From assembly GCA_009869945.1 (NCBI GenBank), contig WIXG01000204.1:1-64000 (forward strand): a stretch of DNA of 64,000 nucleotides, in the 5' to 3' direction. Shown piece after piece: positions 4,971-64,000 of this stretch (positions are counted from its first letter, which is position 1; every line of letters begins with the position of its first letter). The stretch is from Mesaphorura yosii. Its lineage: Eukaryota > Arthropoda > Collembola > Poduromorpha > Tullbergiidae. Under the pieces are notes generated by a model. That model worked only from the letters and a program-made list of their open reading frames with translations. It ran no database searches and had not been told where the DNA came from. The position numbers and the translations under genes were made by a program.

Positions 4971-6117
4971 TCAACGGCGACACTTTCTTCTCGCTTCCTT
5001 TCCGTTCGCCATCTTCGCGTGGATTGCTTTCAAGTCTTCTTCTGTATTAATGTATACTCTGCATTTCTCGAATCCGCATTTGCATAGGGTCAATTCTCCG
5101 GAAGTCAACTCATAATTGATTGTCAGTTCCTCGTTCGGTTCGATTCGCCGTGTGGAGAGAATGAGCACACGCCAGGCTCCCATAACGAACACAGCAGTGA
5201 CCATGCAGTTTGGCTGTTGAGAAAAGAAAGAGGGGTTGTGAGTTACGGAGCTCCTTGCAAGTGCATTCTGGAAGATTATTTGACCATTTACATGACATGA
5301 ATGATTCAAGTACCGCGAACAGTTGCCAGACTTCGTTCCATCAATAAATTTTTTCTTATCAAAAGTGATCAGGTACGTCTTTTCATAGTTGTACTTCTGG
5401 CGCTTCAGTGCAGCTTTCTTCGATACAATCTGGCAACGAGACACAAAATGATCAAAATCTCATCATCTGCGACACAATGAATCTGAACTATCCTCACCTC
5501 GCCTGTGTATTCAAGAAATATTTCATCTTTACGGATTTCAAAGCTCGTAAAGAGTCCCATTCCATGAATCACGGAGGGCCTGACGAGTAGTTGGCGGTCG
5601 TAGTTTCTTACCACGACTTGGTTCTGTCCAATTGAGTGGCTGGGTCCTGGACAGATCGGTGGTGCAGCCCTCACAGGGTCGGGTGCGTTCACTCCGCTTG
5701 GTCTTGCTACTGCTGTTCGTGTACTCCTACTCGGACCAGCATTGCTTCCGAGAAGAGGTATGCGAATTATTAGCCTGAATGAACAATTACATCAATAGAA
5801 TCGCATGTACCTGCAAATTGTAAATGGGTTGTTTCTGTAAAACTTTTCAGCCTAACCAATGGCGTTGGATACCTTCGTTTCTCGATCTGTTTGCACTTGT
5901 CCTGGACTGCCCGTTTCCGAAGTGCTGTCTTGCTCCTGTTGGCGTCCAGTCCACCCCAGGAGAGGCTCATGCTTCTACTTCGACTCCGGGTCCTCTGTCT
6001 GCCTTCATGATCCCGGGCTCCGGCTTTTGCCATCGACCTCGTACACATCGTCAGCTTTAGCGGAGACTGATTCTTTTTGTCTTTCTTGCGGTTGGAATTT
6101 TGTTCGTCTGAATCCAT
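4971..6117 (-). CDS. SET-domain lysine methyltransferase
   Basis: Four exons fit: 6117-5811, about 5712-5498, 5429-5292 and 5213-4971, giving about 300 residues. The N-terminal 110 residues are basic and Arg/Ser-rich (SRSRSMSLSW), likely nuclear and disordered. The SET domain starts near residue 140: GMGLFTSFEIRKDE, then EYTGE joined by splicing to IVSKK, FIDGTKSGNCSRYLNHSCH (NHSC at 216-219) joined to PNCMV, and EELTINYEL with the catalytic-type Tyr at 254. A post-SET cluster C-K-C-x4-C (264, 266, 271) supplies zinc ligands. By family it transfers methyl from S-adenosylmethionine to a histone or other lysine; the exact specificity (ASH1/SETD2/KMT2-like) cannot be read from this. The last intron (5291-5214) has no stop in frame, so its retention would keep the protein open. 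The acceptor of exon 2 is uncertain (5712 or 5706). Confidence 0.85.
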
Positions 6118-21329: not shown

Positions 21330-22102
21330 ATGGCAATTCCTCTCTACGTGCCTGAGGAGTACGGCCCACTGCCACAAGCCTCCGCAATCCAACAGTGCTC
21401 CAACAACCAAATTCGCCAACTGGTGTCCCGAAAATCGTTCTTGCAGCGACTGATCCTGGAATTGTGTTCAATTCACCAAGAATACTGCGCCGCAAGTGTT
21501 CAACGTGCAGCGAATCCATCAGTCGCTGGTCCAGGTTCACCCGACGTCAACAACAACACCAATTTCACGTTTCCACCAGTGGGAGATGCCGCGCCAGGGT
21601 CAAGGGCATCATGTACGCCTTCATCAAGCAGGAGGAGACGGCATCAAGCTGGAAAAGATGGACTTCCTGATCTCGCAACCTGCCATCACGATCTCATGGA
21701 ACCACTGACAGCCACCGCCGCTCCCAACGATCTCGCCCTGAAACCACTGGTCGAGGAGAACTTTACGACTCTTGGATTCAAGTTGAGACAAATTGCAGAC
21801 TCATACGCTCAAAAGGTAAACAGCGTTTGCAAAATTTCTATTTAATCCAAAAATTAATTGGCCATCATTCGAAGCAGTATGCAATTGAGCGCTGTTTTTA
21901 ATTTCTACGTACTTCTGTTTGCTTGCAGGCATCAAAGAAAGGTGGTAACAACTCTGGGCACCATGCTGAAAGAGCACAATCAAGGGGAAAGTTACAGCCG
22001 CAGCGATTACGCCGACGATTTGCAGTGTCCTCACTTTTTGCAATATCAGCTGTGACGGTGGCAGCGGCAGCGGCAGCGTTCGTGTTCATCAAACGGGAAT
22101 GA
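21330..22102 (+). CDS. Candidate BH3-only-like tail-anchored protein
   Basis: Two exons, 21330-21815 and 21929-22102, join at phase 0 (CAAAAG to GTAAAC; TTGCTTGCAG to GCATCAAAG) and give about 219 residues. Residues 148-159, LGFKLRQIADSY, fit the BH3 consensus exactly: hydrophobic, three any, Leu, two any, Ile, small, Asp, any, hydrophobic. It is close to the BH3 of vertebrate BMF and BIM as I recall them. The last 25 residues are a tail anchor: SLFAISAVTVAAAAAAFVF followed by IKRE. The rest is low-complexity and shows no Bcl-2 fold (no BH1 NWGR or BH2), so if real it is BH3-only. Inferred role: a mitochondrial or ER-membrane apoptosis trigger that binds Bcl-2 proteins. No dynein light-chain motif (KxTQT) is seen. 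The motif is short, so chance resemblance is possible. The start is the first ATG after a stretch with acceptor-like sites. AATAAA lies at about 22317. Confidence 0.55.
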
Positions 22103-25100
22103 AGATACGATTTTCAAATTTAAAGTGTAAAGTAAATGGAACTGGCGGACCATTTGAACTTGTATCAGTGTCAAATTTTGCAATACGTCGCAATAATATT
22201 TGCAAATAATGGCTTTCTAGAAAAGTGTCTTTCAAGTAGCGTGTAAACAAGCTTATCTTTTATACAAATCGTACTCATCATGCACGTGTATTTTTTGCAT
22301 TTTACATTTTATATTTAATAAAGACGCAGTACAATGTTTATAATGGATTTGAGGCTCATGGTTCATGATCACTGATCACTTGGTCGGTTATCGTTCATCT
22401 TTCTTGCTTTGCCTCGTTTCCCGGGGGCAGACACACTTGCATCGTGCTGCAGGCCTTCTTCCTCGTTAATCCCTCAATTTCACTGTTTAACAAAAGCTAA
22501 AAGTGAGAAGGAAGAGACGATAAAGATGAAATGGAAAAGGCCCATGACCCATTATCGCCGCTGCACTCGAGTCGAGTCGTGTTTACTACGTCGTAAAAAG
22601 TGTAAGACGAATCCCCAGACAAAATCCTTGAGGCAATCTGTGCAGCACCTCGCTCGCTCGCTCGTTGCTGTGCATGCTCGCGTACGAAGAGAACGTCGCC
22701 ACAACAGAAAACAGCTGAGTTCATGTCAGTCTCAGCTTTTCAATTTTTTGCGTTTTATGTTTCATCCTCGGCAGCATGCAGAAGAATCGGTTGCTGCTGA
22801 TTAGCTGGACGAAGGGAAGATGCTGCACAAAATAATAAACAGCAGCAGGTGTTCCGTGCTGCTCCAACCCCAGCTCGGCCTGGCCTCGGGATCTGCTGTT
22901 CTTGCGTCAAGTAAAAAGAAACGGGACCTTTTCTTTTTATTAATATTATTGAAGCCGTAGTAAACCCGGACAAAAAGGTACTTGAACTTGACGCGAGAGC
23001 GATGGAGCAAGCAGCTCGATTGCGTAACACAGAAGCTGAACACTTGCGGGTTGCGGTTGGCAAGGCCTTGGCAGCAGATTAGAGATTCGTGAGCAGTGCA
23101 TCGTAATCTTGGTCATGTCATCTCATCATCAACATCAACACAAAAGTCGGTGTGGTGTATTGCGAAGTAGGAAAGATCAACTTTACGAGCCCCTCTTTTT
23201 ATTGCATTTGTAAATAGGAATGGAAATCGTATCTTGATTGCACGATCTGCTCGACTTGGAATTATTTGCCTGGAAATATGATTCACTTTACTTGCTTTCT
23301 TTCCCGAGTCTGCTTGAGCCGAGCGTGTCATTTGTCATTGTCACCGTGTCAATCAATTTCTCTCATCTCGGCTTTCGCTTTTTTTTTTTTATCTCTGCTC
23401 TGTTTCTGTTTCGAGTTTAAGTTCGATTTTCCTCAGAATCCATTCGCTGCGTAGGATTTGTACGGTTTTGGCGATGAGATGCGATCGGATTGCGAGAACG
23501 AGGACAAGTGGCTGCTGTGCTGACTGCACACTTGGACTCGCTCAAATGTGCAATTTCATCGTGGAGCATTGTCAACATTTATGAGATTTCCTCGAAATGG
23601 AGAGAGAACATAGAACAGCAGTGCTTGTTTGCCGAGAGGATTGGACAAGTTGAAATACTCAGCCATGCGTTTGATCTTCTGCGTGTCTCATCCTTGCTCG
23701 GAGATCTTTGACAGCTTTTGATTGATTCGACATGAATCAAGCCAGGAATCACAACTGTAACAGCACGCACCGAAATAAATTGTATTCGAAATTTTGAAAT
23801 CGCACAAATCTCGTCGCAAAGCTCCCAAAATTGAGCACGTAAGAGGATAAGAATTGCATCGAGCATCACAAAAGACGACAACACCGAGTGTGCCAATGCC
23901 AAAGTTAGGCTCTTTTGTAAAGATAATTTTATTGCTTTGCTTTTACGTACACGGCAGTAATGAATAATGAGGCAGAGATTATAGCACCGTGCACAAGTAA
24001 ACTCTGCCGGCCAGAAGGAGAAATGGACTCTTCCGTTTCTTGTTTTTACTTCGCGTGGAAGTCTTGAGTCGTAAATCTGAATCTGGATGGACAGCACACG
24101 TGAACTCGTGAACAATCGAGCCTCTTAATCAGTGTACCACTTGTCCGCTCAGTGCAGTACTCCTTTCTTGCGATTGTTTCGAGTTAAGACGACACGATTA
24201 ATGAGGTACAAAACATGTACAAAGTTGAAAGACGCCTAACGCTAGTAATAAATACGAACCACTGGAACGAGGCAAGCTGAGATACTCATCAGCGAATAAC
24301 AAATCATCTCAAAGCACTTTCCATACTGCACATCGCATCGCACTGCTGATCGATCTCCACATCGACTCATGTCGTAAATGTTTCAGTACAGTACCGGAAG
24401 TTGTGCGAAAAAAGAAACAAAACCTACGGCTGTCCACAATTCCAGAAAAGAGACACACGTTTCAAACGAAAAGCCTTATGATTGATTGGGTGATTTCCTT
24501 CGACCATGGCTTCTCGTTTGGTTTGTGCTTTGTGGTAGCTTGGCTTCGGTTTTGATTTTGGTTTCCAATTCATCAATAATGCAATGTCAACGGTCGTCAT
24601 TTCGGTATTCAGTTCCGAATCGAGGCACATCCGACGTTCCTACTCGTAGCGCGTCGTTTGTTTGAGTGGTAATGTTGCTTTCTGTGAAGGCTGTAATTAG
24701 CATGCTTGTGTGACTTGCTTTCATGATGCACTTTCATTACAGTTTGAGAAAGAAAATACTTTAGCATGCGCATAATTGAATGCACAGGAAACTGGACAAG
24801 CAATCAGTGTATGACTTAACGACAAAGGCAATTATAACCTCAAAGAAAGCATCGCCGCGTACCGCGTGGAAAAATATTCCAAAGTCTGTTTGCTTTGATT
24901 CTTGGCAAGGAAATGAGAAGAGATCAAAAACGTAATTTCATTTTTTTAGAGTCCCAAGCGACAGGCAGGCCGAGGTCGGCGGAGAAAAATTAATCAAGTG
25001 CTTACAAGGAAATGAGAAGGAATTAAATTTTTATTCCAAACTTCTTTTATGGATTTTTATGCGACTGCTGCTTAAGTACCACACATTAATACGAGGAAAT

Positions 25101-27256
25101 GGCTTTCATAAAGCCATTTTGCGTGAAACAAGTGTACAGGCTGAGGCTGAACTTTGTCTAATTTCCTGGAGCAGTTTCTTCTTGAGGAGTTTATTTGCAA
25201 AGACCCCCAAGTCTGTCGCGTGTACTTAAATCCTCATTAAGATACTATGCACTTGCATAATTGAAACGGAGAAAATTGAAAATCATCAAAATAGTAGTGA
25301 AAAATGATGCAGACAGAAATCTCCAGGCAATGAACTTCAATTATGAGCGCGCGAACGAGAAAGTCTTCACTTCATTACAGTCAGTCGGAAAGATGACTTT
25401 CATCCTCTTGAGCAGGCCGGGCATGTCATAACAAATCATCTCAGTGATCTCAGACTTTTCATGCTCGGGGAAAGCGTATTCGACTTACGACTTATTCTTT
25501 CCGTGTGCATGTGTCCACGGACGACTGCGAGAGGAGATATCGTTGCGGGTCTCGCAGAGGGGACGTACAGCGCCACTGCGTGCACTTTCTCCACACCAAA
25601 GCGAAAGCATGCAGACTACGGATTGCAGAGGCAGAGCCAGGCACCATGTTTATTGCTTTCCTGATTCGAGTCTTGACTGGCGGAATACGGAATTAGGCTA
25701 GCATAACTGAACTTTGATTTATTGTTTATAATCAGTTACATTCAATAATGAACAGACAATTGTATACTCAAGGAAAAGATCATAGATCATAGTATAATAA
25801 TAATACGAGTAATGTGATGAATGTACGACCGTACAACACAAGTCACGTTAAATATCATCGCAGCATATTTGTAGAAATTAATCTAGCTATTTACAGTTTG
25901 TGTATTGAAACCATATTCTGAATCCAAGTGCCGGCCGGCCGCTTTCTCTTTCCTTTTCCCTTCAGCCTCCTTACTCTTACTTTTACTTTACTCTTAAGCT
26001 TAGCAATTACGTTAGTTAAGTTAAGCTACGGTACTTGCATTGTATTGTAATTTACGATAACAGGATTTTAAATAGAATTAATCAACATTTAACTCTTGCT
26101 CTGTTTGCTGCTCCGTGTTTTGATTGCTTTCTGTTTCGGGGTAAATCACACTTTTGCTTGCCTCTCACGTAAGGTAATGCCATATAAGGTAGCAGAGGGA
26201 CCGGAGCAGGCCCGGTAAGGTAATTGGTAATTAGTAGCTAGCAAAAGTTTTGATATCCGCAAGATCATCCATCACTCTCATTCACACGACATGCATCAGA
26301 ACCAGACGTCGGCCGGTCCTAACCAGATAACAACTCGTAATCTTAGTGAATGAATAACAACATAATCTTTGCACATGGCATCTGCTAATGCATCGAGAGA
26401 TATGCACGCTCGTTTGAATCACATCACACGTGTTTGTCATCGTCAATCCACCCACCCACAAGTACAAGTAACAAGTACACAACAGTCACGCAGCAGCAGC
26501 AGCTAGAGGACAATATTGCCAAACTACGTGTAGCCTACGAATCTGGAGACAAGCAGCAGCAGCGGAGCGAGAGCAGCAATTCGTTCAGGGGACTCGTCGC
26601 ACTTTTCAGAAAGTGGAGATGGAGACTGGAAATAGTAAAATAAGACTTTATTGGAAAGTTTCGAGACTAGGACCCCGCAATAAACACTCGGTCTCAGCCA
26701 CCTTGACCACCGCCGATGATTATGTTCGTGAATATAAAACGCTACATTCTCACTACAATTTGTATTACTGAACGACTACTGACTCGAGAGTTATAATCAT
26801 CGCCCTTCGTCTCCTCTCACACCGTGCGTTCGTGCTGTAGATCGACTACGTGCTTCGTCACAGAAATACTCTTTAGCCTTAGCATGTAAATTATCCTTAA
26901 TTAGAAGAATACATTTTCAAGTGACTGTCAGAGTCGGAGTTGTCGGTGTCCGGAGTGAAGGACACGGGCTGGGAGTCGGACGCCCGAAACTAGCCAAGAT
27001 TACGAACGCGCCCGGTTACGATAATGTACATAGTAATAATATTAATAACAAAGTAGTTCCTGCTCTGACTACGTTCACTGGCCGTCGTCCTTCGACGACG
27101 TGCTGGTCGCTGATTTGCCCTGCTTTGCTACAGTTTAGTTATTTGTGTCTGGATCTTCTCTCTTCCTACTGTGTACGGTGTACGGTTAATGTTGTCGGTA
27201 ACGTAATAAGTAGTTAGTAGTTAATAATTGTTTAGTAATAGGTTAATAATAGCGTT
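22103..27256. other. Intergenic, about 5.2 kb, with Syt1 3' UTR
   Basis: No coding exon is supported. The left end holds the 3' UTR of the BH3-like gene (AATAAA near 22317). The right end should hold the synaptotagmin 3' UTR: a minus-strand AATAAA lies near 26647-26652, implying about 0.6 kb. Between them is AT-rich DNA with short T tracts and small CAG runs (around 26490-26570). Confidence 0.5.
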
Positions 27257-39239: not shown

Positions 39240-41662
39240 ATGTCGCTGTCTTCGCGCGTGTCTCGTCGCTTCTACCGCGTCGACAGTCAGTATGATCTGG
39301 CCTACCTGGACCGGGGCGAGAGTGCATCGGCGGAGAATAGATGGACACTTGAAATTGCCTGGGAGGTCTGCAACAAAGGTATGTATTGGTTTGCTGGAAA
39401 CATTTTGGAGGCTTGGCTAGGTTGAGTTGTCGTGCAGGGAATTCCATGTCGATAATGCCGAATGATTCTTTGCTTCCACAGTTGGAGGCATTTACACTGT
39501 AATCCGGTCCAAGACTTTCGTGTCCATGGAGGAAATGGGAGATCAGGTATTCACGCTGAAACTTGAATGTCCTTTTTATCTCGACAGATTGCTGACTATA
39601 TTATTGCCTGTTTTCAGTACTTCCTGCTAGGTCCGTACAAGGAGCAATTTGCCCGTCAGGAGGTTGAATTAGGCGACTTTTCACCCAACAACCCCATTCA
39701 AATCGCGGTGAACAAGTTAAGAGAGCGTGGACTGGGTGTCAAAGTGGGTCGTTGGCTTGTGGATGGCAACCCGCAGGTCGTGCTCTTTGACTTGGGTCAG
39801 TGCTCCTGGAAACTCAACGAATGGAAGCAGGAGCTGTGGGACAAGACAGGGATCGGTATTCCACACCCCGACATCGAGTGCAATGATTCAGTTCTGTTTG
39901 GCCACGCCACAGCTCAATTCATTGCCGAGTTCCGTCACGCGGCTGAACAGTACAGTGACACCACGCCACACATCGTGGCCCACTTCCACGAGTGGCTGGC
40001 TGGTGTGGGACTGATTATGCTCCGACTCTGGGGCGTGGACGTGGCCACCGTCTTCACAACTCATGCAACCCTGCTCGGCCGCTTTCTCTGTGCTGGAGCG
40101 ACTGACTTCTACAACAACCTGGCCAAGGTGCGTTGTTTGAGCAAATCAAATTAGCCATTCACACATGTTTGTTTCCTTGTTAATTTCCAGTTCATTTATT
40201 ACAGTTCAACATTGACGAGGAGGCCGGCAAACGTCAGATCTACCATAAGTACTGTATGGAGCGTGCAGCCTGCCAAATGGCGCACGTCTTCACAACTGTT
40301 TCGGAGATTACAGGCCTCGAGGCCGAGCATTTGCTCAAGCGAAAACCCGACCTCATCACTCCAAACGGGCTGAACGTCAAGAAGTTCTCGGCGCTGCACG
40401 AGTTTCAGAACCTGCATGCAATCTCCAAAGAAAAAATCAACGAGTTTGTTCGAGGTCACTTTTACGGCCACTTTGACTTTGATCTAGACAAGACGATTTA
40501 CTTCTTCATTGCGGGTCGTTACGAGTTTGGGAACAAGGGTGCCGACATCTTCATCGAAGCCATTGCGCGTCTGAACCACCTTCTGAAGGAGGCCAGGTCG
40601 CAGACGACGGTAGTTGCGTTTATGATATTCCCCACAAAGACTAACAACTTCAACGTGGAGAGTCTGCGGGGACAGGCGCTGACGAAGAGTCTCCGCGACA
40701 CCATTCACGGCATTCAGCAGACGGTGGGCAAGAGAATGTACGACATTTGCCTGAGCGGGCGACTCCCGACGTCGGAGGAGCTGCTGCAGAAAGATGACAT
40801 GGTCAAAGTGAAGCGCTGCCTGTTCTCGCTGCAGCGCTCGACGCTGCCGCCAATCACGACCCACAACGTGGTGGACGACTTCAAGGACCCCGTACTGAGC
40901 GGACTTCGCAGGTGCAACCTCTTCAACTCGGTGCATGACCGAGTCAAGGTGATTTTCCACCCCGAGTTCCTGGCCTCCACGAACCCGCTCTTTGGGCTGG
41001 ACTACGAGGAGTTTGTGCGCGGGTGTCACCTGGGCGTCTTTCCCTCGTACTACGAGCCGTGGGGCTACACGCCAGCCGAGTGTACGGTCATGGGCATTCC
41101 ATCAATCACCTCGAACCTCTCTGGTTTTGGCTGCTTTATGCAGGAACAGATTGCTGACCCGCAGTCGTACGGAATCTACATCGTCGACCGGCGCTACATC
41201 GGGCTGGAAGACTCTGTGCGACAGTTGGCCTCCTTCATGTTTGATTTTTGTCGTCTCAACCGCCGCCAGCGTATCATACAGCGGAATCGTACCGAGCGGC
41301 TCTCGGACCTGCTCGACTGGAGAAGCTTGGGCGTGTACTACCGCCAGGCCCGGATGAAGGCGCTCAAGATTGTCTTCCCCGAGCTGGAGGACTTGGAGGA
41401 CCAGATGGTGGCTGCCAAAAAGATGAACTACCCACGACCCATTTCGGAGCCGCCGTCGCCGAGCTCATCTCGAGCCACGTCGCTACATGGGTCGGATGAT
41501 GAGGGCTCCGTGGACTCGGAGGCAGAGGTGAGTTTCTAATCCCGGTCGCAGCCACAACCATTCAGAAGAAGGCAAACTGTTAATCATACCGCACTTTTGT
41601 ACCTTTTTCAGCTGGACGAGCTGCAGGGTCGAGTGAATGGTCTACAAATGACTGCCCGATAA
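39240..41662 (+). CDS. GlyS: Glycogen synthase (GT3 family)
   Basis: Five exons (39240-39378, 39482-39546, 39618-40127, 40205-41527, 41612-41662) join in frame to 695 residues. The UDP-glucose-binding loop [13 protein letters not shown] is at about 45-57 and is built across the first intron. The GT-B core follows, with [15 protein letters not shown] and [15 protein letters not shown]. The catalytic E-x7-E is in [20 protein letters not shown]. The glucose-6-phosphate-sensing Arg cluster is [20 protein letters not shown]. The C-terminal tail [20 protein letters not shown] matches the phosphorylation-regulated region (GSK3/CK2-type serines), and SSRVSRR at the N-terminus resembles site 2. It adds glucose from UDP-glucose to glycogen in the cytosol; phosphorylation inhibits it and glucose-6-phosphate activates it. 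Two closely spaced acceptors precede exon 4; only the second (40204) keeps the frame. AATAAA is at 42001. Confidence 0.97.
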
Positions 41663-47395: not shown

Positions 47396-49175
47396 ATGGC
47401 CAGTAAACTAAATACGAAGCTCCTAGCCGTCACTGTCGTCGGTCTCGTCCTCGGTATTCTTGGATCAGTATTTATTGCGGTTTGGCCAAAAATATTCGAC
47501 AGTATTATGTTTAAGGTAAGGCCTACTTTTTATGTCGACATCAGCACCTGAATTAATTTTACTTTTTTCTTTAATCTTACAGCAACTCACCTTGACCAAT
47601 GACTCAATGAGTTTCCAGCTCTGGCGCGAGTTCCCGATTCCTATTTACCTAAGTTTCACCATGTTTAATTGGACCAACTTCGATCGCATGGGTGTTGAAA
47701 AGCCAAAACTAGTCGAAATGGGCCCTTACGTGTTTCGGGAGCACAGAATGAAAACTAACATGACCTGGAACAACAACAATCAGACCATTACGTACTTCCA
47801 GAACCGTACATGGATGTTTGAACCCGAAATGAGCAACGGGTCCTTAAGTGATATGGTTACCACCATCAACGTTCCTGCTGTTGTAAGTTTCCTCATGAAA
47901 GGGGAAATTCAAGTCACTTCGACTTAGCTTAAGTGAACTTATTGCAGGTTGCTGCCAACGCCCTCCGACATTCGTCTTTTCTCATTAAACTTGCCTTGGA
48001 CGAGCTGATGGCAGTCTTGAGAACAGAGTCACATGTTACCAAATCAGTTCGTGAGCTGATATTCGACGGATACGATGACCCTATCATAAAGTTTGCCGAA
48101 CACTTGCCTCCAGCTTGGCTCCCCGGCACTCTACCATTCGATAAATTCGGGTGGTTCTACACGAGGAACGGTTCCTACACGTACGACGGCATCTTCAACA
48201 TGCAGACAGGCGTCGAAGACATTTTCCAGCTAGGAATGTTGAGCCAATGGAACTACTCGTCGCGTACTTCCTTCTATAAAGACCATTGTGGAATGATAAA
48301 TGGTTCAGCGGGAGAAATATTTCCACCTCTGCGAGAAAGGACGGGTATCGATTTGTTCGTCACCGATATTTGCCGCACGCTTTCTCTCAAGTACAAGGAA
48401 GATTCGGTCTACGAAGGTATCAAGGGCTATCGGTACTTGGCTGACGACCAAATGTTTGCCAACACGAGCACAAATCCTGACAATTGGTGCTTCTGTGGTG
48501 ATACGTGCTACCCGAACGGAGTTCTCAATATCAGCACCTGCAAGTAAGCACCAACGGGACACTCCAAAAAGCTGAAAGACATGCAAAGTTAAAGTTACTA
48601 ATAACAAATTGTGTTGCTTTTGTCAGGTGGGGTGCTCCGGTGTTCATGTCTTTCCCACACTTTTATCACGCCGATCCGTGGTACCTTGCTGCTGTCGATG
48701 GAATGAATCCGGGCCCAGATCACGAAACCTTCATGGACCTCGAGCCGACCTCCGGACTGCCGATGCGTGTGTCCGCAGCTCTCCAGATTAACATTTTCGT
48801 GCCCCCGATGCATGAATACAGGTAAGGCTACGAACAAAACCAGCAAGCAAGTGCTATGAACTTGGAATCGACTCGACTCGCTTTAACAACTTAGTTTCTG
48901 CTTGTCTCAATTTCAGACCATTTAAGAATATGCCGTCATTATTTTTCCCTGCGTTCTGGTTCCGCCAGAGCGTGAATATCGACGCGAACATCACCGCACA
49001 GGTGAAGCAGTTCCTATTCTACTCGAGCACCGGTTCAATCGTCTCATTCCTGTTCCTTGGCATTGGGATAAGCACTCTGCTCGTGTCCCTCATCGTGTAC
49101 TGGACAAGATTTAGACGTGAGGACGACGCGTTGTACCTAGTCAGTGGGAGCTCACCAATTTCGTCAACAACCTGA
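47396..49175 (+). CDS. CD36-family scavenger receptor
   Basis: Five exons (47396-47515, 47583-47882, 47948-48543, 48627-48821, 48917-49175) join in frame to 489 residues. The layout is that of CD36/SCARB/LIMP-2: a short cytoplasmic start, a membrane helix at about 9-31 (LLAVTVVGLVLGILGSVFIA), a large extracellular or luminal domain, a second helix near residue 450-475 (IVSFLFLGIGISTLLVSLIV) and a short tail. Family marks are QLWREFPIPIYLSF, MGPYVFREH, WFYTRNGSYTYDGIFNMQTG, DICRTLSLKY and the Cys-rich WCFCGDTCYPNG before KWGAPVFMSFPHFYHADPWY. Many N-x-S/T sites fit a glycoprotein. Such receptors bind lipids, lipoproteins or carotenoids, or sit in lysosomes; which role applies here is not clear. 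The tail lacks an obvious di-leucine signal, which argues for the cell surface. AATAAA is near 49643. Confidence 0.94.
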
Positions 49176-51024: not shown

Positions 51025-52592
51025 ATGAGCTGTTGCACAACAATCGAACAGCTGTCCGCCCACATCTGCGGCCTAGTTAGTGACAGCAACGAGAACACGA
51101 TCAAGTACAAGATCCAAGTGAGCCACCATGATGCGACCACAAACGAGGAGCTCCATCACTGGATCCTCGTGCGGCGCTACTCTGACTTTGATGCTCTGCA
51201 CAAGAAATTGGTGGAGTCAAACGGTAAACGACCGGAAGTGGCATTAGCGGCTCTTTCCTTTCGGGATAAACGTGAGTTTGAAGGCTCTGGTCCACTTATC
51301 TTGCAGGCATTCCGCGCGGGAATATTTCGCTGCCTCCAAAACGTGTGATTGGCAACAAGGAGCCGGATTTCATCGAAAAGCGAAGGCACCAGCTAGACAA
51401 GTACTTGGGAGCCATCGTCACCTTTTTCAAACTCAACCCGCCCGAGGATCTGGCCAAGTTCCTGGAGTTGTACGACTATGAGATTATGTTTATGCTACGG
51501 AAACTTGCTGTTGACATATTCGAGAATGGAGACTCCCTCCTGCAGACAGCGACCGCGCGCACTTTTTCCCCTTACCAGATATACGCCATCAACGAGCGCA
51601 TGAAGATGGCAATTCCGCCCCTGACAGACTCCGCAGACAAGCGTCAGGATTTCTCGCACATTGTAGACTTTTGCAACTCCGTACAGTGTTTGGACATTGT
51701 GGGCTCAAACATTCCGCTGGGCACAAGCACCATCATTCCGAATCAGTATTCCTTCAGTCTGCAGCCTTTTAAGAGCATTAAGCAACTGAAATTCAAGCAG
51801 ATCAGTTGCGATCGCATCAGTGAGGTAAAACTATCAGCAAAAATTAGGATTCTGAAGGATGATCTAATCCGTCAGAACAAAGCTTGATAGAGTGATATAT
51901 GGCAGGTTGGTGCTGTTCGAGAAACAGTTGAGTCGTTGATGGTCCATAACTGCAACCTGCGTTCTACAAATGAACTGCTGCTGGCAGACACCATCTACAA
52001 AACATACGCCGAAGCAGGCTCCTCGTACGTCTGGCCCCAACTCAGCTACTTGTGTCTGTCCAACAACTCACTCACGAGTGTGGCCGACATAGAGCACTTA
52101 TGCCCGACGCTCCGTCGACTTGACGTCAGCTTCAACCAGCTCGAGTCAGTTTTCAACCTCACATCGCTCCCGTACTTGGAGTCTGTGAGTTACGCGGGCA
52201 ACATGATCGCTAGCCTGGCTCCCACACGCACATCGCCCGCCCTGCATCTCCTCTTTGGCCAAATCTGCCGACTCGACTTCTCGAGCAACCATATTGTAGA
52301 GCTGAAGCCCTTTCACGGCCTGTACTCGTTGGTGGAGCTGAACCTGAGCTGCAACCGTGTCACCGACGTCGAGCAGGTGGAGCATTTGGGCTCCCTGCCC
52401 TGCCTGGACGTGCTGGTGCTCACGGGCAACCCTGTCGCATCCTCCATTGACTACCGGGTCAGAGCACTCACGTACTTTGCGAAGCGAGCGTCGGACATCA
52501 CGCTGGACAACGAGCGGGCGTCGGGAGCAGAATTGGACCAAATTTCTATTCTGCAGGCGATTCAGATGGCACGACAGACTGCGATTAGATGA
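51025..52592 (+). CDS. Nischarin-like PX-LRR protein, short form
   Basis: Three exons (51025-51271, 51307-51824, 51906-52592) join in frame to 483 residues. A PX domain occupies about residues 8-120, with the phosphoinositide-binding-type RRYSDF (50-55) and LPPKRVIGNKEPDFIEKRR. A linker follows that contains QLKFKQISCDRISE. About six leucine-rich repeats run from about residue 285 to 430 (LSYLCLSNNSLTSV, LRRLDVSFNQLESV, ICRLDFSSNHIVEL, LVELNLSCNRVTDV, LDVLVLTGNPVAS). This is the N-terminal architecture of Nischarin/IRAS, which binds PI3P on endosomes, Rab and integrin alpha5, and regulates PAK signalling. The vertebrate protein is about 1500 residues; this one stops after the LRRs. Intron 1 is only 35 nt. 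A run-through into the 3' side is not visible. Confidence 0.9.
51272..51306 (+). other. Ultra-short 35-nt intron of Nischarin
   Basis: The donor GTGAGT and acceptor CTTGCAG bound a 35-nt intron. Its removal is required: it joins DK to RIPRGN and keeps the PX domain in frame with the conserved PPKRVIGN segment. Confidence 0.85.
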
Positions 52593-62411: not shown

Positions 62412-64000
62412 TTATTCCACGCTGAGCCAGACGACTTCCGTCGCAATTCCGCACAGATTCTTGTTGGTAGCAATGTAAAGGTAGCCTTTGTCGCCGAAGG
62501 TGCTGCCCCACGAGTTGCGGACGATGTAGTGCGCCGGAGTGGTCGTCCTATCATATCCCACGATCTGGAATTCCAAATGTCAGCTCAGGTCGAGGTCAGG
62601 TAATAAGAATTGAGAAGCTCGAGTAAATTCGAATTGTTTTGTGATTGCCCTTGCCTGCACGGCGTGATTGACGGACGTCTCGCAGTTCCACTGGATTACT
62701 CCCCCGACATAATACTGCCAATTGGTGGCGTCCACTGCAACAGTGACGGGGCCGTGAGTGGCCAGCAGCTCCAGCACCTTGTCCTCTGCGTCGATGAGCC
62801 TCGAGCACGAGTAGTTACGAGCCACCTGCACGCCCTCCGCCGAGCTCTGCAGGCGACAGCTGCCGTCCTTGAGTGTGAGAGGGTACTGAGCCTCGGAGGA
62901 CAGCTTGCGGTTCGCCATCCATGCCACAGCTGTGCACGTGTCACCTCCGCTGCAGCCGCTGTTCCCGTTCTTTGAGCAATCGATGACCTGCTGGACGCTC
63001 AGCTCCTCCAGATGCCCGCTGGTGAGGGCCTGCATGCTCTCCACAGTCTCGACAGTGGAGAAGGCCCAACAGGCGCCGCAGTCCTTTTGGTGCTTGACCT
63101 CTGCAGGAATAACAAACATTTAAACCAAGTACTCACAAGTTGGGGCTGATGTAAATTGGGTCGGCGACTCGACTCACTGGACACAATTTGCTTATCTCTC
63201 CAGTCGACTTTGTCCGGCAATACGCTTCTTTTGTGCCTGTTATGATGGTGCCGCTCTTCTCCGCCCACTTGCCCTTCTCCATGGTCTTTGTGCTTGAATG
63301 GATGCCTGTGATGTGAGTGCAGACTGTGTCGCTTTAAAATACGGTCCAGGAGACTGGAGTCGAGGTAGCGATGCTTAAATTCCTCTGCAATGTAAATGTA
63401 AAATGCAAACTTGCATTGTAGGAAGAGTGCAACAAGGCTTGAGTCTAATGAACCCCGTTGCCCTCGTGCGCTTACCTGGACTCAGATCCGCGAAGGCAGT
63501 CAAGCCCCACTTGGCGACTCCCTGCAACAATTAAAGAGCCCAGCCGAACATTGCGTGCAGCATTTAAAAATGAGCCCAGATCGTAACGAAAAGGTGTACC
63601 TGATTCTTTGACATTCCCTCACTCCATTGCACAAAATTACTGACGTCACCCTCATCAGTTATTTCATTCCCCGCGTCAAGTCCACCATCAGTGGAGCCGG
63701 AACCCTTCAACAAGTGCTTACGCTGCCCAGTATTAAGCTTCTGAATCGCCTTCAAAGAATCCTGTACACAATCCGATGAGATTAACGGCTTAGCTGCAAA
63801 TTCTTACACCGTGTTTCTATATTATATTGTAACGAAGGAAATTTTCGTACCTTGAAGCCCGCGATTCTCGAGCGCTCCTCGTCGCCACTGGAGTATTGTT
63901 TGCCGAATGTTTGCGTGTAGTTGTGGAACATCGATTGAATCTCGGCGTCTGCCAGTCCCGCCTCGCCCGTCCGCCGTGCGTTGTGGGACGGAAGCATGGT
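62412..64000 (-). CDS. Papain-family cysteine protease, partial at 5' end
   Basis: Six exons are visible (64000-63851 running off the window, 63761-63600, 63521-63476, 63384-63178, 63100-62655, 62564-62412) and all join in frame. The I29 propeptide is recognisable (SMFHNYTQTFGKQYSSGDEE, GVAKWGLTAFADLSPEEFKH) but holds an acidic/Gly insert around SGSTDGGLDAGNEITDEGD. A His-rich linker (HSLHSHHRHPFKHKDH and RHHHNRHKRS) precedes the mature start LPDKVDWRDK. The catalytic set is complete: oxyanion Gln and Cys in QKDCGACWAFS, His in VNHAVQ, Asn in VRNSWG; the GCSGG motif is present. By family it is a lysosomal or secreted cathepsin (L/F/26-29-kDa-like) endopeptidase. The last intron (62654-62565) begins with GC, not GT. 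The start codon and signal peptide lie beyond the window or at an exon further upstream. Confidence 0.93.

Follow-up and report, generated by a model that had tools for sequence, protein, structure and literature searches.

The window analysed here is a 64,000-nucleotide stretch of the genome of the collembolan Mesaphorura yosii (contig WIXG01000204.1), and carries on its forward strand a two-exon gene encoding a protein of 219 residues, as read from the translation and the splice sites (Table 1). The ATG start codon at 21330 lies in the context AAAATGG, the stop codon ends at 22102, and the intron between the exons is 113 bases long. Exon 1 encodes an N-terminal motif, a conserved helix-like segment, a variable middle region and a candidate BH3 motif, LGFKLRQIADSY, which is separated from the exon boundary by three residues (AQK), in agreement with the initial annotation, which had placed it directly before that boundary. 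The best 19-residue hydrophobic window of the protein is found 38 residues past the motif and the C-terminus reads IKRE, matching the anchor that had been described about 40 residues downstream. The protein had also been described as lacking BH1 and BH2; Pfam returned no family for it at E values up to 10, so neither was seen, and a phmmer search of its whole length against the PDB (177,635 sequences, E up to 10) gave no matches.

Table 1. Features of the two-exon gene and its 3′ flank, in window coordinates.
Feature	Position	Strand	Basis
Exon 1, coding, residues 1–162	21330–21815	+	Translation and splice sites; tblastn matches to four paralogues, best E 2.3e-10
N-terminal conserved motif MAIPLYVPEEYGP	21330–21368	+	Common to L007 and, less fully, L010
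Conserved segment SFLQRLILELCSIHQEYC, residues 36–53	21435–21488	+	S36, F37, L41, I42, E44, L45 and C53 identical in all five members
BH3 motif LGFKLRQIADSY, residues 148–159	21771–21806	+	Pattern conserved in all five members; profile matches the BH3 of PUMA and of the genome's own BAX-like protein
Phase-0 intron, GT-AG	21816–21928	+	Splice sites from sequence; same-phase intron 1–3 residues past the BH3 in all five models
Exon 2, coding, residues 163–219 and stop: linker and anchor	21929–22102	+	Translation and splice sites
C-terminal hydrophobic anchor, residues 198–216, followed by KRE	22034–22090	+	Mean Kyte-Doolittle hydropathy 2.46; equalled in 2 of 20,000 shuffles of the protein
AATAAA polyadenylation-type signal	22317–22322	+	215 bases past the stop

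The surroundings of the gene had been described as 15 kb of gene-poor DNA, and this is consistent, as judged by eye, with the list of open reading frames. Neighbouring frames with Pfam domains in the window include CorA (1281–2843), SET (4974–5459), C2 (28901–29257) and a papain-type protease (62583–63119) on the minus strand, and PX (51282–51884) on the plus strand. A glycogen-synthase-like gene near 39567–41536 and a CD36-like gene near 47520–49172 were recognised by eye.

A strict 12-position BH3 pattern, written with the gene family described below already in view, occurs in 18 of 20,000 shuffles of the window protein, and a looser pattern in 288 of 20,000, so that a single motif is by itself only moderately unlikely. 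The decisive point for the reality of the observation is that motif, intron and hydrophobic tail are kept in all five members of the family. In a 13-position BH3 consensus the site after the aspartate is acidic and the last site hydrophilic. The claim that the segment satisfies every position of the consensus fails for this longest version, since the window protein has a serine after the aspartate and an alanine as the last residue.

The gene had been taken to stand alone, but it is one of at least five related genes in the genome. A tblastn search with the window protein over its own genome (93,006,257 bases in 1127 contigs) gave six matches. Two of these represent the query gene, and the remaining four fall in the first exons of paralogues, at C598:4912 (E 2.3e-10), C598:33518 (1.4e-7), C598:32 (2.8e-7) and C462:24912 (6.0e-7). 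Searches begun from two of the four paralogues (L007, L008, L009 and L010) brought back the same five genes, with no others among the matches listed. The five gene models were derived from sequence alone, and those of L008 and L009 are incomplete at the 5′ end, since contig C598 is cut off on either side at one and the same base within the gene. The two ends carry these members in inverted orientation; their first 120 bases are identical, and the remainder of exon 1, taken in 60-base blocks, is 63–83% identical. The assembly thus breaks off at the ends of C598 within sequence that was recently converted or has been collapsed, and the family may hold more than five genes.

All five members read [VIL]-G-x2-L-R-x-[IV]-A-D-S-[YF] across the BH3 region, and the invariant columns of the family include G149, L152, R153, A156, D157 and S158. 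The third and fourth positions of the pattern, after the glycine, differ from member to member (FK, LQ, AQ, LQ and RD). Related proteins that had lost the key positions would have spoken against a BH3; among the paralogues, the comparison made here, the series hydrophobic-x3-L-x2-[IV]-A-D-x-[YF] is kept in five of five. In every model the second exon consists of a linker and a hydrophobic C-terminus with a short tail, the best hydrophobic window ending 3–6 residues from the C-terminus. The hydropathy of this window is 1.96–2.46 in four members; that of L010 is weak (1.56, with an arginine inside, a value reached by 89 of 20,000 shuffles). The gene models end after the tail, and in the other four members the first AATAAA follows 252–369 bases past the stop. 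At the opposite end of the protein, the sequence MAIPxYxP is present in all three members with a complete 5′ end, and the corresponding DNA pattern is found at three places in 93 Mb, all of them family genes (backward control, 0). A second conserved block, F-x2-[QR]-L-I-x-E-L, occupies residues 37–45. When Pfam was applied to the five members, the sole match was a weak and unrelated one (SpoIIP, 0.092) in one of them, and the globular Bcl-2 domain (PF00452, BH1–BH3) was not found in the family.

The nearest pair, L008 and L009, has a dS of 0.57 and a dN of 0.25, while in the nine remaining pairs of the ten pS is near saturation (0.69–0.82). Leaving the near pair aside, pN is 0.03–0.29 in the N-terminal motif (three pairs), 0.18–0.27 in segment 36–56 and 0.20–0.50 over the 20-residue BH3 block, against 0.45–0.66 in the middle region, 0.53–0.74 in the linker and 0.41–0.61 in the tail; in all ten pairs the BH3 block has a lower pN than the middle. 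With pS near saturation and pN lower in these blocks, the genes look old and selected, and the BH3 is one of three kept pieces. Mean pairwise identity is 0.69 in the N-terminal motif, 0.65 in segment 36–56, 0.53 in the BH3 block and 0.28 in the tail, where hydrophobicity is preserved rather than the exact sequence. Segment 36–53 may be a control or binding element. It was considered as a BH4 or first helix of Bcl-2, but this found no support, since it matched no Bcl-2 protein in the 144 kb of fetched DNA and window or in the PDB, and profile alignment with a BAX-like protein of the same genome (see below) paired the BH3 alone.

Since the N-terminal motif and segment 36–56 show a higher average conservation than the BH3 block, another function may dominate. 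The family could consist of BH3-bearing, membrane-anchored proteins that serve mainly outside apoptosis, for example as regulators of autophagy or mitophagy (BH3 motifs have been reported in BNIP3 and Beclin), or as regulators of mitochondria that bind Bcl-2 proteins. The greater conservation of those two pieces speaks for this; the short protein, the BH3 close to a hydrophobic tail and the absence of any Pfam domain are rather the layout of classical BH3-only inducers, and we consider a main role outside apoptosis unlikely.

The definition of a BH3 motif given in PMC9171138 requires an acidic site in addition to four hydrophobic sites, and a minimal form, L-x3-[GAS]-D, is given in PMC10107002; by our own assignment of residues to positions, the four hydrophobic sites and the acidic one are present in all five members. 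Both sources describe BH3 motifs as short, degenerate and prone to convergence (PMC10107002, PMC9171138). The BH3 block was compared outwards as a profile of 30 positions built from the five paralogues. Against the PDB (E up to 10) it matched six sequences, all of them PUMA BH3 peptides (E 0.13–1.9), aligning iGlqLRQIAD with IGAQLRRIAD or IGAQLRRMAD. These matches are weak singly and are in effect variants of one protein. A control profile of segment 36–56 (four distinct sequences) matched one unrelated protein in the PDB.

The same BH3 profile was run over 3893 open reading frames, a six-frame set covering 144,000 bases and made up of the window plus eight fetched stretches (6,092 bases are counted twice where L013 and L014 overlap), three of the stretches having been chosen for their Bcl-2 genes. 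The five family genes ranked first, followed by LRQVADAF on contig C17 (E 0.0016) and an unrelated frame (0.055). The C17 match, the best outside the family in the fetched DNA, corresponds to the BH3 motif in a BAX-like protein. By hhalign, the family and the joined C17 protein align over residues 142–165, that is, over the BH3 alone (E 0.00066, with a low probability of 27%); in a rerun C17 scored 31.1, against a best of 26.1 for 200 shuffles, none of which reached it, and a best of 21.7 for 410 non-family frames (415 were scored, five of them family). Used by itself in a phmmer search of the PDB, the exon of C17 that carries the BH3 gave one unrelated weak match and no BH3.

The strict protein pattern has seven matches in the 193,466 residues of the six-frame set, namely the five genes, C17 and a minus-strand frame of the window at about 26374–26409 (ACISLDALADAM), this last probably a chance occurrence. 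Over the whole genome, a degenerate DNA pattern for approximately L-R-[QHL]-[IV]-A-D-x-[YF] is also found at seven places (backward control, 1): the five family genes, C17 and the sequence LSHVADAF on contig C851. C17 was already known when the DNA pattern was drawn up, and one codon was widened to admit it, so that the pattern shows rarity rather than an independent find. The C851 place was rejected as a BH3, since LSHVADAF lies inside a polyketide-synthase-like frame. This frame (L036, around 11694) is open for at least 1007 residues and carries zinc dehydrogenase, KR, PP-binding and NAD_binding_4 reductase domains, as at the end of a polyketide synthase; in an arthropod assembly this means either horizontal acquisition of the gene or a contaminating contig.

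A helix that resembles a BH3 by convergence and binds some other partner, in a tail-anchored protein of unrelated function, would draw on the degeneracy of the motif, the looser pattern being found 15 times in the 193,466 residues as well as in the shuffles given above. Against this stand the few places at which the strict pattern occurs, and the ranking of the profile, which was given no BH3 as its target and outside the family nevertheless placed BH3s first, both in the PDB (PUMA, weakly) and in the 144 kb (the genome's own BAX-like protein). The ranking and the positions kept among the paralogues support the BH3-only reading of the initial annotation, at the level of sequence comparison, and we consider a convergent helix of this sort improbable.

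Three loci in the genome match the PF00452 profile, on C17, C97 and C50, and their proteins are possible binding partners of the family. With its exons joined, the C17 protein spans PF00452 completely (all 100 positions, 1.7e-18) and also matches BAX in the PDB (4.4e-13); it is BAX/BCL-W-like. The other two gene models are partial: C97 is BOK-like (best PDB match BOK, E 0.00016), and C50 has one exon below the cut-off (20.9 bits), two pieces joined by eye reaching 42.9 bits (7.8e-11). The closeness of the C17 BH3 to that of the family (LRQVADAF versus LRQIADSY) would suit degenerate Bcl-2 paralogues, BAX-like copies now decaying after the loss of BH1 and BH2. Decay, however, does not fit five open two-exon genes whose pS is near saturation and whose nonsynonymous change is low in three blocks. 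Moreover, segment 36–53 has no match to a Bcl-2 protein, either in the PDB or among the fetched stretches, hhalign pairs the BH3 alone, and the BH3 exon of C17, by our reading, extends about 35 residues beyond the BH3, unlike that of the family, so that we regard decay as very improbable. The BH3 of the family may have been derived long ago from a BAX-like gene.

Relatives outside the genome were sought in collections of viral and genome contigs, neither of them a eukaryote collection, and none was found. The viral contigs gave 47 pattern matches with no relative among them, and the genome contigs six, with one locus (L040, E 2e-6 among the candidates). L040 was rejected, as its match, FLQRLIIELCSF, runs antisense within a bacterial frame (792 residues) that is by eye an ATP-binding transporter, and no BH3 is seen in its own frame. 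A separate observation concerns Chitin_bind_4, a cuticle-protein domain typical of arthropods, which has 66 matches in the M. yosii genome, 13 of them clustered on contig C314, where four contain an internal stop codon; these matches agree with an arthropod origin. An exact 18S pattern and COX1 each found nothing in the genome, and rRNA and mitochondrial contigs may be missing from the assembly.

Among the closest known proteins is PUMA (BBC3), a vertebrate BH3-only protein which also has a C-terminal membrane anchor. Its core in PDB chains, IGAQLRRMAD or IGAQLRRIAD, is nearly identical to the IGAQLRQIAD of paralogue L008, but the likeness is limited to these ten residues; the residue after the BH3 aspartate is acidic in PUMA and a serine in the family, no counterpart of MAIPxYxP or segment 36–53 was found, and the family has no Pfam match. 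Similar BH3 cores need not mean shared descent, and for descent from PUMA or BIM no likeness past the core was seen in the whole-protein PDB search or in Pfam. BIM, BIK and HRK are short, tail-anchored BH3-only proteins with the hydrophobic anchor within about 40 residues of the BH3, and the window protein has the same short layout, a BH3 followed by a C-terminal hydrophobic anchor; the resemblance is one of layout, the family having no Pfam match to theirs. BMF, which the initial annotation had cited beside BIM, is doubtful as a tail-anchored protein, and BIM, BIK, HRK and PUMA are the closer parallels.

Drosophila, and possibly all insects, were long believed to lack caspase-activating BH3-only proteins (PMC10107002). 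The same report, in the text available, describes Sayonara (CG14044), a Drosophila protein with two coiled-coil domains (PTHR21974) and a BH3, LAYNLGVIGDARK, that arose within the flies (Diptera). Like the present family, Sayonara comes from an arthropod and has no BH motif besides its BH3, but it is a coiled-coil protein for which that text mentions no tail anchor (PMC10107002), the two being compared by description rather than by sequence. EGL-1 and CED-13, named as nematode BH3-only proteins (PMC7456325), resemble the family as ecdysozoan members of the class, a comparison likewise by description. In a literature search that was partly poorly aimed and covered mainly journals outside subscription, Sayonara was the sole arthropod BH3-only protein found (PMC10107002), and no tail-anchored arthropod family was seen; the class is scarcely reported from arthropods. 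On this literature and on the PDB, Pfam, viral and genome-contig collections compared, we regard the genes as a new family among the BH3-only proteins.

The kept BH3 pattern, the lack of a recognisable BH1 or BH2, the C-terminal hydrophobic stretch, the long-term constraint and the presence of Bcl-2 genes in the genome all point to the same explanation, to which we assign a probability of roughly 80%: the window gene codes for a BH3-only protein with a tail anchor and belongs to a family of five, predicted to act as inducers of cell death. The tail of such a protein would insert post-translationally into the outer membrane of mitochondria (or into the ER). Lying some 40 residues away from the membrane, the BH3 helix would fit into the groove of Bcl-2 proteins of the same species, L148, L152, I155 and Y159 filling the four hydrophobic pockets and D157 providing the acidic contact. 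The bound BH3 would then block survival members of the Bcl-2 family or activate a BAX-like one. The N-terminal motif and segment 36–53 would probably hold, sense or switch the protein, so that cell death is triggered under stress, and an intron between BH3 and anchor would permit both soluble and anchored forms.

A wider proposal, which we put forward tentatively and would not bet on, is that arthropods, or at least this lineage, have retained or evolved anew several genes for canonical tail-anchored BH3-only initiators, which carry a novel conserved N-terminal control module (MAIPxYxP and segment 36–53) and a BH3 copied from the species' own BAX-like gene, so that intrinsic apoptosis would be vertebrate-like rather than working mainly through IAP antagonists, as has been argued for flies. 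The predicted BH3 described here is backed by conservation among paralogues and not by one motif match, and with five peptides and three receptors the trigger of arthropod Bcl-2 proteins becomes directly testable. A five-gene family with hydrophobic tails and a nearly canonical BH3, alongside BAX-like, BOK-like and further Bcl-2 genes, would suggest an initiator layer of the vertebrate style in some arthropods.
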